A stretch of DNA of 32,415 nt from a virus. Positions 12,209-16,496 of the stretch are shown in pieces. Every line of letters starts with the position of its first letter. Position 1 is the stretch's first letter. The stretch lies in the IMG/VR virus record IMGVR_UViG_3300046723_000024, positions 1 to 32,415 of that record; one strand, given 5' to 3'. The position numbers were made by a program, and so were the translations under genes. The notes beneath the pieces were generated by a model. The model saw only the letters and a program-made list of their open reading frames with translations, was not told the origin of the DNA and ran no database searches.

Positions 12209-13189
12209 ATGATCAAACAATTCAATATTTTACGAAATGAAGGTGGAGACGATCTTGGCGGTGGCGGCGGTTCTCCCGCCGATTCTGGTGGTGGCGTATC
12301 TTTGCTTTCCTCCGCGCCCAATCCCCAAGCACCGGCGGCACCGGCGGCGCAAGGTTCGCAATCGCCAGCTCCGGGGGGTGGCGCGTTCGACTTCCGGACG
12401 CTGATCGGTGACGACGGCAAGTTCGTTGCAGGCTATCAGGACAAGCTTCCCGAGAACCTGAAGGAGCACGGCAAACACTTCTCGAAGTATGCCGACCCGT
12501 TGCAGGCGCTCCAGCACACGCTCAACCTTCAGCAGCTCCTCGGGCAAAAGGCGGATGCCGTCGTGATCCCGGGCGCTGATGCTCCCAAGGAAGCGTGGGC
12601 ACCGGTCCTGAAGCGCCTCGGCGTGCCAGACTCACCGGACGGATACGGCCTGAAAGTTCCCGAGAATCTGCCGGAAGGCGTGAAGGTCGATGAAGCCGAG
12701 TTGAAGGAGTTCGCCACGTTCGCCCATGGACTTGGCCTGACTCCCCAGCAGGTTGCCAAGCTCCAGGAGTTCGACCTTGGACGCGCTGCAAAGTCAGTCT
12801 CCGGGTCGGCAGAGCAAGCGCAGGCAATCGAGGCCCAGGAGTTCACGAAGCAGAAGGAGATTCTGACGAAGGAATGGGGCAATGGCCCCGAAGCCGTGAA
12901 GAAGAACGCCTTGGCCGAGCGGGCCGCGCTGACATTCGGGTTCTCGCCCGAAGAGGTGAAGAGCGATCCCCTGTTCAGGAATGCCCGATTCGTCATGACG
13001 CTGGCCCGTGCCGGTGCCGCGATGTCCGAAGATACGCTGGTGAAAGGTTCCGACCTGAACAGCACCGGAGGACTGAAGGCCCGCGCATCCGATGTCATCA
13101 ACAACCCTCAGAACCCGATGTATACGAAATACTGGGCGGGCGACGAGGACGTGAACAACCAAGTCCGCAACTGGATGCGGGCGGGTTGA
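12209..13189 (+). CDS. Capsid scaffold-like protein
   Basis: A 326-residue protein. The first 60 residues are glycine/alanine/proline-rich and disordered. The rest is helical, with YQDKLPENLKEHGKHFSKYA and DPLQALQHTLNLQQLLGQKA, followed by the pattern VPDSPDGYGLKVPENLPEGV that is common in phage scaffold or capsid assembly proteins. The C-terminus (YTKYWAGDEDVNNQVRNWMR) has the conserved ending found in these proteins, thought to contact capsid protein. Placement directly before the capsid gene supports this role. The start codon follows CCCGCGC, again without a Shine-Dalgarno sequence. Confidence 0.8.
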   Translation: MIKQFNILRNEGGDDLGGGGGSPADSGGGVSLLSSAPNPQAPAAPAAQGSQSPAPGGGAFDFRTLIGDDGKFVAGYQDKLPENLKEHGKHFSKYADPLQALQHTLNLQQLLGQKADAVVIPGADAPKEAWAPVLKRLGVPDSPDGYGLKVPENLPEGVKVDEAELKEFATFAHGLGLTPQQVAKLQEFDLGRAAKSVSGSAEQAQAIEAQEFTKQKEILTKEWGNGPEAVKKNALAERAALTFGFSPEEVKSDPLFRNARFVMTLARAGAAMSEDTLVKGSDLNSTGGLKARASDVINNPQNPMYTKYWAGDEDVNNQVRNWMRAG

Positions 13190-13190
13190 G

Positions 13191-13214
13191 TTGCGATTTA
13201 TCGCAGTATCGCAA
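13191..13214 (+). repeat. Overlapping inverted and direct repeats after the scaffold gene
   Basis: TTGCGAT (13191-13197) pairs with ATCGCAA (13208-13214), and inside it GCGAT-TT-ATCGC (13193-13204) forms an alternative hairpin. TATCGCA occurs twice, eight bases apart (13199, 13207). This could be an RNA switch between two hairpins or an operator for a dimeric protein. Confidence 0.5.
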
Positions 13215-13229
13215 TATCCCGATAATCCG

Positions 13230-13263
13230 CGCCCGTCTTCACCCTGTGGAGGCGGGCGTTTTT
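13230..13263 (+). terminator. Intrinsic terminator before the tRNA gene
   Basis: Arm 13230-13242 (CGCCCGTCTTCAC) pairs with 13246-13258 over 13 positions including G·U pairs, loop CCT, followed by TTTTT (13259-13263). It would stop the head-gene transcript after the scaffold gene. Confidence 0.85.
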
Positions 13264-13295
13264 GATTTGACGTGCTCCCGGTGATACGGCAATCG
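13264..13295 (+). promoter_or_regulatory. Promoter-like repeat, copy 1 (drives the tRNA)
   Basis: GATTTGACGTGC directly follows the terminator and contains a -35-like TTGACG (13267-13272). Exactly 17 bases later lies CAATCG (13290-13295). A start seven bases on would be at about 13302, the first base of the tRNA. The same word and spacing occur at 13465-13496. The -10 match to TATAAT is poor, so a phage-modified or alternative polymerase is possible. Confidence 0.45.
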
Positions 13296-13301
13296 TTTCT
13301 C

Positions 13302-13375
13302 ACCGCTGAAGACAAATGGCCAGTCATCGGTCTCATAAGCCGACCAACCCGGTTCAAATCCGGGCAGCGATACCA
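13302..13375 (+). tRNA. tRNA-Met (anticodon CAT)
   Basis: A 74-base gene with encoded CCA. Acceptor arms 13302-13308 and 13365-13371 pair at six of seven positions (C·A mismatch at the second pair). The D arm is GAC/GTC with loop AAATGGCCA containing the conserved A14 and GG. Anticodon stem TCGGT/GCCGA encloses loop CTCATAA, identical to the elongator tRNA-Met loop of E. coli. T arm is CCCGG-TTCAAAT-CCGGG; discriminator A. Departures are an A instead of the nearly universal U at position 8 and a short four-base variable loop. The anticodon stem lacks the three G:C pairs of initiator tRNA, so elongator Met is likely, or an Ile2 tRNA if the C34 is modified to lysidine. Confidence 0.85.
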
Positions 13376-13413
13376 CTTTCCACACCTACCCCAACCGGCC
13401 ACATCTGAGGGCC

Positions 13414-13446
13414 AACCCCGCCTGGAGAAATCCGGGCGGGGTTTTT
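13414..13446 (+). terminator. Intrinsic terminator after the tRNA gene
   Basis: Arms 13414-13426 and 13431-13443 pair at all 13 positions (one G·U), capped by a GAAA tetraloop (13427-13430) and followed by a T-run (13442-13446). It gives the tRNA gene its own short transcription unit. Confidence 0.9.
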
Positions 13447-13464
13447 GTTTCACCAATCCGAAAG

Positions 13465-13496
13465 GATTTGACGTGCGACTCTCATCGGTGCTATCG
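13465..13496 (+). promoter_or_regulatory. Promoter-like repeat, copy 2 (drives the capsid genes)
   Basis: GATTTGACGTGC again follows a terminator. TTGACG (13468-13473) and CTATCG (13491-13496) keep the same 17-base spacing as the copy at 13264. Transcription from here would produce a leader of about 140 bases before the major capsid gene. Confidence 0.45.
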
Positions 13497-13544
13497 CTCG
13501 TCCGTCCACGGACCACTTGAGCGAGGCCGGCCACCAGAGCCGAT
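13484..13544 (+). other. Multi-stem structured element upstream of the capsid gene
   Basis: Outer stem 13484-13492 with 13536-13544 (eight of nine pairs), second stem TCGCTC (13494-13499) with GAGCGA (13519-13524), and inner hairpin GTCCG-TCCA-CGGAC (13500-13513), plus the palindrome GGCCGGCC at 13525-13532. In readthrough RNA this could fold as one nested structure; as DNA it is an extended inverted repeat overlapping the promoter-like repeat. Confidence 0.45.
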
Positions 13545-13560
13545 CACCGCACAGCACAAG

Positions 13561-13586
13561 CCCGGAAGCCTAAACCGCTCTCCGGG
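13561..13586 (+). other. Hairpin in the capsid leader
   Basis: CCCGGAAGC (13561-13569) pairs with GCTCTCCGGG (13577-13586) with one bulged base. Only three T residues follow, so it is a weak terminator at best, more likely a leader hairpin that stabilises or regulates the capsid message. The remaining bases to 13645 show no further structure. Confidence 0.45.
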
Positions 13587-13645
13587 TTTCATCGTTTTGA
13601 GACCCAGCAAGGGGAGTGAATCCACCAAATTCACCACTCAAAACA

Positions 13646-14569
13646 ATGCCCGATCTCACCATCGACCAATTCTACACCGACCAGTTCGACGCGAACTGGC
13701 AGCATCTCGTCCAACAATCGGAGGGCCGTGTTTACAGCCTCGTCCGTCAGGAAACCGTCAAGGGCAAGCGCAAGCTGCTCAACTTCATCGGCAAGTCCAA
13801 AGCTCGCCTCATCACCACCCGCTCGGGGAAAACCATCCCGTCGAACACTCCGTATGCGAAGCGCAAGCTCTCGCTCCGGTCATACGATGAGGTTTACCAC
13901 GAAGACGAATGGGACGCCGAGCTTCTCGGTGATGTCACCTCCCCGCGCTCTGCGGTGGTGATCTCCCACGCCTACGCCTTCCAGCGCGCCTATGACGAAG
14001 CCGTCATCGAAGCAGCCACCGGCACCGCCTACATTGGCGAGGACGGCGACGAAGCGGTTGACCTGGGCAACGGCCAGAAGGTACCGGTCAACTACATCCA
14101 CGGTTCTACCGGTTCCAACTCGGGCCTGACTCTCGCCAAGATCATCAAGGCGAAGTCCATCCTCGGGAAGAACGAAGCCGCCGGCCAGAACAAGACCGGC
14201 GTCATGGGAGACAAGATGATCTTCCTCGTCACCCAGCAACAGCTCGATGACCTGCTCATCAACGTCGATCAGGTGTCCAACAGCCGCTATGCGGACGTGA
14301 AGGCACTCGTCAACGGCGAGGTGAACCAGTTCATGGGCTTCACGTTCATCCGCACGCAGTTGCTGGCGCTCGATCCCGCAACCGACATCCGCACTTGCAT
14401 CGCGTTTGTCTCGTCCGGCATCGCGTTCTCCAACAACGGCATGAGCACGAAGATCATCATCCGTGATGACCTCAACGAAACGCTCCAAATCCGCACCAAG
14501 GGACGCCACGGCGCAACCCGGACGGAAGAGGAAAAGGTCGTTGCCGTCTACGCGGACGAATCGCCCTAA
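13646..14569 (+). CDS. Major capsid protein
   Basis: A 307-residue protein following the scaffold gene. It opens MPDLTIDQFYTDQFDANWQH, and has a recognisable series of strands and helices such as KRKLSLRSYDEVYHEDEWDA, DVTSPRSAVVISHAYAFQRA and FMGFTFIRTQLLAL, as in capsid proteins of Bordetella BPP-1-like and related podoviruses with an HK97-type fold. The last 30 residues (TKIIIRDDLNETLQIRTKGR) are the usual C-terminal β segment. The frame extends upstream to 13616, but the ATG at 13646, after leader CTCAAAACA, is preferred. It probably has its own promoter and structured leader, consistent with high expression. Confidence 0.88.
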   Translation: MPDLTIDQFYTDQFDANWQHLVQQSEGRVYSLVRQETVKGKRKLLNFIGKSKARLITTRSGKTIPSNTPYAKRKLSLRSYDEVYHEDEWDAELLGDVTSPRSAVVISHAYAFQRAYDEAVIEAATGTAYIGEDGDEAVDLGNGQKVPVNYIHGSTGSNSGLTLAKIIKAKSILGKNEAAGQNKTGVMGDKMIFLVTQQQLDDLLINVDQVSNSRYADVKALVNGEVNQFMGFTFIRTQLLALDPATDIRTCIAFVSSGIAFSNNGMSTKIIIRDDLNETLQIRTKGRHGATRTEEEKVVAVYADESP

Positions 14570-14578
14570 CCAATCATA

Positions 14579-14605
14579 GGCGGGCTGGCATCACGCTGGC
14601 CCGCC
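14579..14605 (+). other. Hairpin after the major capsid gene
   Basis: GGCGGGCTGGC (14579-14589) pairs with GCTGGCCCGCC (14595-14605) over 11 positions with two G·U pairs, loop ATCAC. There is no T-run, so it is probably a processing or 3'-stabilising hairpin that separates the capsid message from downstream genes. Confidence 0.65.
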
Positions 14606-14635
14606 GCCCCCAACCACCAAAAAGAACAAATCATC

Positions 14636-15205: not shown

Positions 15206-15844
15206 ATGCCATCAGAAACCGACATCGCAAATCTCGCGCTCCAGCATCTTGGAGAATCCCGCATCAGCTCCATCGAGGACACCGGGGACAAGGTTTCCCG
15301 GACATGCGCGGTCAACTTCGCCCAAGCCCGCGACGAGGCCCTTCAATCCGCCCGCTGGAGCTGTGCCAAGAAGCAGGAGGCACTCTCGAAGCTGGCAGAC
15401 GCCCCGCTCTACAAGTGGCACGCGGCCTATCAACTCCCCGCCGACTTCCTACGGCTGATCGAAATCGAAGGAGCGAACGCATGGACTCCCCGCGAGTATT
15501 TCGATGTGCAAGGCAAGACGCTGCTGATCGGGCGCGGCCTCATCGATGACGAGATGCCGGAAACGATCATCATCGAATACATCCGCCGGGAGACCGACAC
15601 CACGGTGTTCGACCCTCTGCTGGTCGAGTCGATTGCCATGCTGCTGGCGATGAAATGCGCTCGATCCCTGACCGGCTCCGACTCGAAGCAGTCCGAACTA
15701 CGGCAGGAATACGAGCGAGTGGTCCTCCCCCGGGCGATGACGCTCAATGCCTCTCCGATCAACTCCAGCCTGAACCACCCGGTTCGCGAGCTGATGGCAA
15801 AATCCTTCATGAACCGCGCTCGCCGCACCGGCTCCTTCAGGTAA
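15206..15844 (+). CDS. Tail tubular protein A
   Basis: A 212-residue protein close to T7 gp11 (196). The family hallmarks are present: TDIANLALQHLGESRISSIED at the start, ALQSARWSCAKKQEALSKLA, YKWHAAYQLPADFLRLIEIE and the C-terminal E-x-Y-x-x-x-x-P-x-A-x-x-x-N-A pattern (YERVVLPRAMTLNASPINS). It forms the ring joining the portal to the nozzle. The last eight bases overlap the convergent minus-strand HNH gene. Confidence 0.92.
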   Translation: MPSETDIANLALQHLGESRISSIEDTGDKVSRTCAVNFAQARDEALQSARWSCAKKQEALSKLADAPLYKWHAAYQLPADFLRLIEIEGANAWTPREYFDVQGKTLLIGRGLIDDEMPETIIIEYIRRETDTTVFDPLLVESIAMLLAMKCARSLTGSDSKQSELRQEYERVVLPRAMTLNASPINSSLNHPVRELMAKSFMNRARRTGSFR

Positions 15845-16496
15845 GATGCCGATACTTTGAGTCAACCTCATGAAACAGCGCCTTTTCAATATCCCATCCA
15901 CGACGAAGCCTCGCGCTGATCGTATGCCTTCCGATATTAAGGCGCTCCGACCATTGGGAGACAGTCATGCTCATCCCTCTGCATTGGAGAATAATATTGT
16001 GCCGAGAATTATTCGCCTGCTCAACAGGGTGCGCCCATCGGCAGTTTTCTGGGCAGTAGTCTCCATCGTTGTTGATCCTGTCGATGCTGGAACCTTCTGG
16101 TCGTGCGCCCATGTCGCTGGCGAATACCGCGAAGCGATCTTGCCACCTTTTGCAGACCTTGATTCCTCTTCCTCCATAACATGGGAAAGCGGGATGCTTG
16201 GGATTGGATGTTCTGGCCTTCATCCCCTTCCAAGTGGCGTAAAGCGGGTGATCTTTGGATTTCAGACCATCAACCAGTTTTGTGCTCGCCTCGGAGCTTT
16301 TGGCATATCGATCACATCCGCAGGACATCGTTTTTCCGTGTCCGATGTTCCCGATGTAAACGGAATGAGCTTTTCCGCAGTCGCAGGCACACGCGAGGAA
16401 TGTCCTTGTGTTACCTGCGGCGTCTTTCCGTTTTTCAAAAGCCACAACAACAAGTCTTCCGAACCGGCTTCCTGTTTCAATGTCACTGATCTTCAT
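15837..16496 (-). CDS. HNH-type homing endonuclease gene, antisense to all neighbours
   Basis: A 219-residue protein. The order is the known family pattern: N-terminal RFGRLVVVAFEKR, two zinc-binding cysteine pairs (CDCGK, SCGCD), LYATWKGMKARTSNPKHPAF, CYGGRGIKVCKRWQDRFAVF, and the HNH-like SIDRINNDGDYCPENCRWA with its E-x-A-N-N-x-R end. A C-terminal helix-turn-helix-like part (MSMTVSQWSERLNIGRHTIS) follows. It is the only minus-strand gene here and separates tail tubular A from tail tubular B. GC is about 52% by my hand count (15901-16380), lower than its neighbours. These traits indicate a mobile gene inserted between conserved tail genes. How it is transcribed is unclear, since no promoter is evident. 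Confidence 0.85.
   Translation of the reverse strand: MKISDIETGSRFGRLVVVAFEKRKDAAGNTRTFLACACDCGKAHSVYIGNIGHGKTMSCGCDRYAKSSEASTKLVDGLKSKDHPLYATWKGMKARTSNPKHPAFPCYGGRGIKVCKRWQDRFAVFASDMGARPEGSSIDRINNDGDYCPENCRWAHPVEQANNSRHNIILQCRGMSMTVSQWSERLNIGRHTISARLRRGWDIEKALFHEVDSKYRHLT

Follow-up and report, generated by a model that had tools for sequence, protein, structure and literature searches.

The gap between the capsid assembly gene and the major capsid gene in a 32.4-kb virus record (the window, that is, the whole stretch of DNA that was analysed) probably controls the capsid gene of an HTVC010P-like podophage; in it, a terminator that would stop transcription from upstream (T1), a promoter and a structured leader are accompanied by a tRNA gene carried as a passenger. 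The gap extends from 13190 to 13645. Upstream of it lies a capsid assembly or scaffold-protease-like gene (12209..13189, +; phrog_3742, E 1.5e-30; phrog_458 protease, E 1.6e-11), the counterparts of which in relatives are annotated as capsid assembly protein or (putative) protease. Downstream lies the gene for a major capsid protein (MCP) of the HTVC010P type (13646..14569, +; phrog_3437 major head protein, E 2e-44), with 36% identity to the MCP of Pelagibacter phage HTVC010P and 79-95% to those of the relatives L004-L014. By sequence similarity, the structural genes place the window among the HTVC010P-like podophages. Phages of this type rank with the most abundant viruses of the sea and, to our knowledge, encode no RNA polymerase. 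Read along the sequence, the gap contains a short repeat, T1, a 12-mer, a tRNA-Met gene, a second terminator, the 12-mer again, a multi-stem leader, a terminator-like hairpin (T2), a further hairpin and the ATG; all parts listed between the scaffold and capsid genes in the preliminary description (repeat, terminators, promoter-like repeats, tRNA, multi-stem element and hairpins) could be located. The short repeat (13191..13218; TATCGCA twice, GCGAT/ATCGC inverted) is weak, has no counterpart in L004-L014 and is probably incidental.

Strong terminators flank the tRNA on both sides. T1, a putative insulator (13229..13263, +), has a hairpin of 14 pairs at 13229-13259 followed by a T-run, and the second terminator (13414..13450, +), between the tRNA and the capsid promoter, has a hairpin of 13 pairs at 13414-13443 with a T-rich tail. 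Both show the GC-rich stem and subsequent U-run of a predicted intrinsic terminator and are by far the best two of the 12 kb scanned, where the raw count of terminator-like sites is not above that in shuffled sequence (14 vs 11.3). Among the close relatives (11 contigs with MCP 79-95% identical, 7 of them distinct with the region upstream of MCP and 6 reaching the assembly gene), a counterpart of T1 precedes the capsid promoter. In L004, with an MCP 93% identical, the order is assembly gene, terminator, GATTTGACGTGT, -10, leader and MCP. Of the island, whose conservation in related phages had been proposed as a check, terminator, promoter and leader are kept and the tRNA is not. Where the window has its tRNA, L007, L008/L009 and L014 carry a short RNA region with a terminator and a further TTGACA-promoter-like site, which suggests that small RNA units tend to settle in this slot. 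The units of L007, L008 and L014 are found about 160-400 nt 5' of MCP with an RNA region of 80-150 nt; ACGCAATT is common to L007 and L008, and no common fold of the three was established.

A terminator before the capsid gene is also characteristic of the wider family. A scan for sense-strand intrinsic terminators covered 172 distinct MCP loci, many of which came from one pattern search and are thus related rather than independent. It gave 77 terminators within 250 nt upstream of the MCP start in 167 loci of HTVC010P-like phages, at most 0.02 per locus in each remaining bin from -2000 to +1000, and a reappearance at +1000 to +1750, past the capsid gene and its neighbour. With a second scoring, a strong terminator was found at -300 to -25 in 69/164 loci vs 4/266 control zones, and 46 loci of greater diversity, scanned earlier, had shown an excess of about sixfold; under strict criteria, a terminator is present in no more than about 42% of loci. 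Near the leader, promoter scores are only slightly higher than in shuffled sequence (average 8.0 vs 7.1). The conserved core, as far as sequence comparison goes, is terminator, sigma70-type promoter, structured leader and MCP, and the capsid gene looks walled off as a unit of its own. The claim that the island insulates the capsid message is thus supported by the terminator before the capsid promoter, both in close relatives and, as a class, family-wide. T1 would stop transcripts arriving from the connector and scaffold genes, and the sigma70-type promoter right behind it would start the capsid mRNA using host RNA polymerase. Intrinsic terminators against upstream transcription are known from Tn916, where one blocks entry into a mobile-element module (PMC11658703); that insulator has neither a promoter nested in the terminator nor a conserved leader RNA. 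The published annotation of Skadi, a related HTVC010P-type phage, reported no terminators, tRNAs or riboswitches (PMC10504331).

The two promoter-like repeats are exact copies of the 12-bp sequence GATTTGACGTGC at 13264-13275 and 13465-13476, with no third exact copy in the record; by simple arithmetic about 0.006 such pairs would be expected by chance in 456 bp. Copy 1 (13264..13275, +) has the same -35 as copy 2 (TTGACG at 13267-13272) and no good -10 (CAATCG at 13290-13295 with spacing 17, AATCGT with 18), and it matches the -35 region of L004, which directly follows T1. Copy 2 belongs to the putative capsid promoter (13465..13497, +), with -35 TTGACG at 13468-13473, a spacer of 18 and -10 TATCGC at 13492-13497; it scores 8/12 against sigma70 and predicts a start at about 13503. 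A sigma70 scan at a threshold of 9/12 detected neither copy. In 8 relatives from the window clade, TTGAC and a -10 starting with TA lie at a near-constant distance from leader hairpin 1, and copy 2 is plausible as a promoter. The window corresponds to the L004 arrangement plus 201 bp between the two -35 copies, the copy 1 side retaining T1 and -35 and the copy 2 side retaining -35, -10 and leader. Because of this layout and the lack of a good -10 at copy 1, the tRNA and the second terminator can be taken for an inserted cassette, and the most plausible reading of the repeats is that the -35 of the capsid promoter was duplicated, one copy on each side of it; the tRNA-Met would have been inserted, with its own terminator, between the two copies of the -35 region. 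That the repeats are promoters of a phage polymerase was rejected, as the genome has only two exact copies and the promoter seen in the relatives is of the host type. A hairpin, AATCC-GAAA-GGATT (13454-13467), reaches into the -35 of copy 2 and is absent from L004.

The tRNA itself is a credible gene. The tRNA scan that had been suggested confirmed a tRNA-Met (CAT) at 13302..13375 (+) by ARAGORN, with encoded CCA, and RF00005 recognises it with 46.6 bits vs a threshold of 29 (cloverleaf, anticodon and CCA end). It has a C-A mismatch at 2:71 and an A at position 8. Its candidate identities are elongator Met, initiator Met and Ile(k2C), the initiator on account of an anticodon arm that matches that of tRNA-fMet; anticodon arm and T-loop are initiator-like, yet the tRNA carries A1:U72 and C2.A71. 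It is near to the tRNA-Met of Sinorhizobium phage phiM5, another podophage, in which a tRNA-Met lies directly 3' of the capsid gene. ARAGORN found no tRNA in the 11 contigs L004-L014, and the slot is without tRNA in all 7 distinct close relatives with sequence upstream of MCP. Credible slot tRNAs occur in three lineages among more than 170 MCP loci, namely the window (Met), L041/L045 (Gln) and L164 (Thr-Met-Ala). A tRNA in this place is unusual but not unique. It is improbable that the tRNA-Met forms its own regulated operon, a deliberate separate transcription unit needed by the phage. The terminators on both sides, the -35-like repeat and the fact that two other lineages also have tRNAs in this slot would fit such an operon, but the -10 is poor, the tRNA has degenerate features, L004-L014 do without it, and the slot tRNAs of L041 and L164 have no terminator/promoter brackets like those of the window. 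The earlier idea of the tRNA as its own transcription unit and the reason for the island is not supported as the main point, given that close relatives have no such tRNA and that its private promoter lacks a good -10; on the comparative evidence, the tRNA-Met is an optional passenger of the capsid control region. Single tRNA genes are likewise found within other phage genomes (PMC10264068 and others), whereas here the gene stands between the scaffold and capsid units and is optional. A pattern built from the anticodon and T arms of the window tRNA had no bacterial match when scanned over genome contigs, so no host was assigned; capsid relatives in genome bins (one Akkermansiaceae bin) are too distant for that purpose. 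ARAGORN also called a tRNA-Arg in L235 (4247-4339, -).

Behind the promoter, the capsid mRNA would open with a structured leader of two hairpins sharing one asymmetric internal loop, and this leader turned out to be widespread. In its full form, each hairpin has a 4x1 internal loop (GUAG/U or ACAA/C). The loop was noticed when reading leaders by eye and then sought with a descriptor blind to loop identity, which in 49 leaders returned ACAA/C 13 times and GUAG/U 7 times, with 8 and 6 in reverse orientation; in 20 sets of shuffled leaders, no loop identity rose above 3. The paired descriptor matched 20/49 leaders; elsewhere in the 338 kb, with both strands searched, it matched only 5 times. The motif is present in the isolates HTVC010P, HTVC035P, Baldr, Alteromonas phage ZP6 and two Manatee Spring phages, and absent from two Vibrio phages and MEP301. 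In a protein-independent test, a 22-base RNA pattern searched over IMG/VR gave at least 120 contigs, plus 8 of the ACAA type (at least 128), and MCP lies 14-71 nt (median 47) 3' of the RNA in 123/123 contigs with enough downstream sequence; the leader of the window, too, is directly 5' of an HTVC010P-type MCP. Stem positions outside the pattern (outer pairs 1-4 of hairpin 1) are 75-94% paired vs 41-53% in shuffles, and stem covariation scores 0.462 vs 0.178, with slid controls at or below 0.142. The first RNA pattern tried had matched just a terminase gene and was discarded. Rfam 15 recognised only the tRNA above threshold, both at the gathering threshold in the window and 20 relatives and in E-value mode in the island and four twin-leader loci. 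Neither the leader nor a nested gate of the kind set out below was found in the open-access literature searched. The tRNA and the single signals are ordinary, and what appears to be new is that a leader runs through the family, that it is linked to a single capsid type and that terminator and promoter are nested. In L103 (Alteromonas phage ZP6) and L099 (Baldr), both motif hairpins have the same orientation and are not mirrored, and L164 (1626-1735) has a third motif hairpin (GGTCCGAAAGGGTAGC) 5' of the twin pair, right behind three tRNA genes.

The most plausible role of the twin loops is that of a pair of sites recognised by a protein or by RNA polymerase, which would set the amount or the translation of capsid mRNA. 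Another possibility, to be taken seriously if not the probable one, is that promoter and 5' stem-loops only boost capsid expression by stabilising the mRNA and aiding ribosomes, as before T7 gene 10, with no specific ligand. In favour of such a booster, hairpin 1 coincides with the start of the transcript in about ten loci, 6-7 nt past the predicted -10, and leaves the ribosome site, about 47 nt further on, unobstructed; however, loop identity (GUAG/U, ACAA/C) is kept while the stems change, and plain stabilising stems need no such loop. In T7, the phi10 promoter and a structured leader precede the major capsid gene and a terminator follows it, so that dedicated promoter, structured leader and terminators past the capsid gene (here at +1000 to +1750) are common to both; T7 differs by its own polymerase, by RNase III processing and by lacking both conserved internal loops and a terminator that immediately precedes or encloses the promoter. 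Recognition by the capsid protein or another phage protein, which would bind the twin hairpins as an autoregulatory operator and match capsid supply to assembly, is rather unlikely. The tight link to the MCP gene alone (123/123) and the presence of the loop twice, in either orientation, would suit a multimeric binder, whereas the hairpins leave the ribosome site uncovered, and we know of no RNA-binding role of the HTVC010P-type capsid fold. The MS2-type operator, a bulged hairpin over the replicase ribosome site bound by a coat-protein dimer, likewise has a bulged hairpin controlling a virion gene, but it belongs to an RNA phage and is a single hairpin covering the replicase ribosome site, while binding is only a proposal here. 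CsrA-type binding was rejected because the GUAG-type leaders are without GGA sites.

In the window, the multi-stem element (13509-13548) is indeed present, as the preliminary description had it, but its probable membership in a widespread structured capsid leader had been missed. The leader has a folding z-score of -3.1. Hairpin 2, GG-[C]-CGGC..GCCG-[AUCA]-CC (13525..13548, +), is kept in all eight members of the clade with a shuffle frequency of at most 0.003; each member has a 1x4 loop C/A[UCA][AC]A with outer GG/CC, and the stems differ yet remain complementary. Hairpin 1, CGG-[ACCA]-CUU..AG-G-CCG (13509..13529, +), is identified mainly by position and motif with no model match, and when judged as a separate 4x1-loop hairpin with its own outer stem it is weak and shares bases with hairpin 2. 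R1, a covariance model built for the twin leader, had no match in the leaders of the window or L004-L014, and a looser pattern for the window-type leader gave mostly chance matches and no new clade member. With moderate confidence, the window leader can be considered a condensed form of the twin-hairpin leader, with hairpin 2 clear and hairpin 1 weak; its homology to the marine form is suggested by position, promoter and internal-loop motif.

T2 (13559..13598, +), a terminator-like hairpin with a U-rich tail, follows in the interval between leader and capsid gene and is present in 7/8 clade members. Its hairpin (13559-13588) has a shuffle frequency of 0.003; T2 is strongest in L008, L009 and L014, L011 has a U8 tail and L007 has no U-tail. 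Further downstream (13609..13639, +) are an SD-like AAGGGGA and the hairpin GAGUGAAU..AUUCACCACUC (13614-13639), which ends 6 nt before the ATG. The SD-like GGGGAGUG can alternatively pair with the T2 loop/arm CGCUCUCC, and all 7 loci in which T2 was called (7/7) preserve this pairing, with compensatory change. An antiterminator role of the pairing was dismissed because the GGGGAGUG strand is made after T2. T2 stands in the path from the promoter to the gene and leaves no space for a second promoter, so it has to leak or be overridden; on this ground put-like antitermination is the leading candidate mechanism: in the window clade, read-through past T2 would be allowed or regulated, most likely by put-like or protein-assisted antitermination. 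The put RNA of phage HK022 is roughly 70 nt long, has two hairpins with internal bulges, can sit just 3' of a promoter and antiterminates as RNA alone via the beta' zinc-binding domain; it acts in early operons, with a triplex fold and a bulge in stem I (PMC9378689). The leader resembles it as a phage-encoded two-hairpin RNA with internal bulges near a promoter for host RNA polymerase and differs from put, as described, by one shared 4x1 loop that is often mirrored and by its tie to the capsid gene; for the leader, antitermination is a proposed function. A metabolite riboswitch with tandem aptamers would account for the twin conserved internal loops and, in the window clade, for T2 with the alternative pairing near the ribosome site, yet it is very improbable, as the RNA precedes a capsid gene only, has no Rfam match and in most clades is without a terminator 3' of the leader.

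In one other clade of the family, terminator and promoter are nested. In 51/79 distinct GUAG-type leaders (0.2 expected), the terminator hairpin ends inside hairpin 1, and the 5' arm of this nested terminator contains the -10 of a TTGACA-16/17-TATYCN promoter; the predicted start lies at most 2 nt from the start of the terminator 3' arm in 46/49. One example is TTGACA-N17-TATCCC with AGGCTATCCCA/TGGGGTAGCCT and a T-run. A transcript that begins at the nested promoter is without the 5' arm, therefore it cannot form the terminator and can form hairpin 1, while RNA reading through from upstream can form the terminator. Predicted fold energies average -18.2 kcal/mol for the terminator in RNA entering from upstream and -8.0 for hairpin 1 in promoter-started RNA, so the switch between the two folds is a prediction. 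We tentatively propose, as a possibility rather than the expected outcome, a widespread, undescribed capsid-leader RNA family combined with a one-way gate for transcription, in which the promoter nested in the terminator would stop upstream RNA, whereas RNA started internally would refold the 3' arm into a hairpin recognised by protein or RNA polymerase, licensing capsid transcription. The window would then be a variant in which nothing is nested, the terminators being adjacent and a second one following the leader: in its clade, the terminator abuts the -35, and for copy 2 of the window it ends 24 nt before the -35. A module of terminator, promoter and leader linked to the capsid gene would offer a concrete, testable control point for the timing and boosting of capsid expression, and the nested promoter-in-terminator layout, if true, would be a compact natural insulator. 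Two minor features of the window lie downstream of the island, namely a GGCGGGC..GCCCGCC hairpin with no T-run just 3' of the capsid gene (14580-14607) and a 219-aa ORF on the opposite strand within the tail gene cluster (15837-16496, -).
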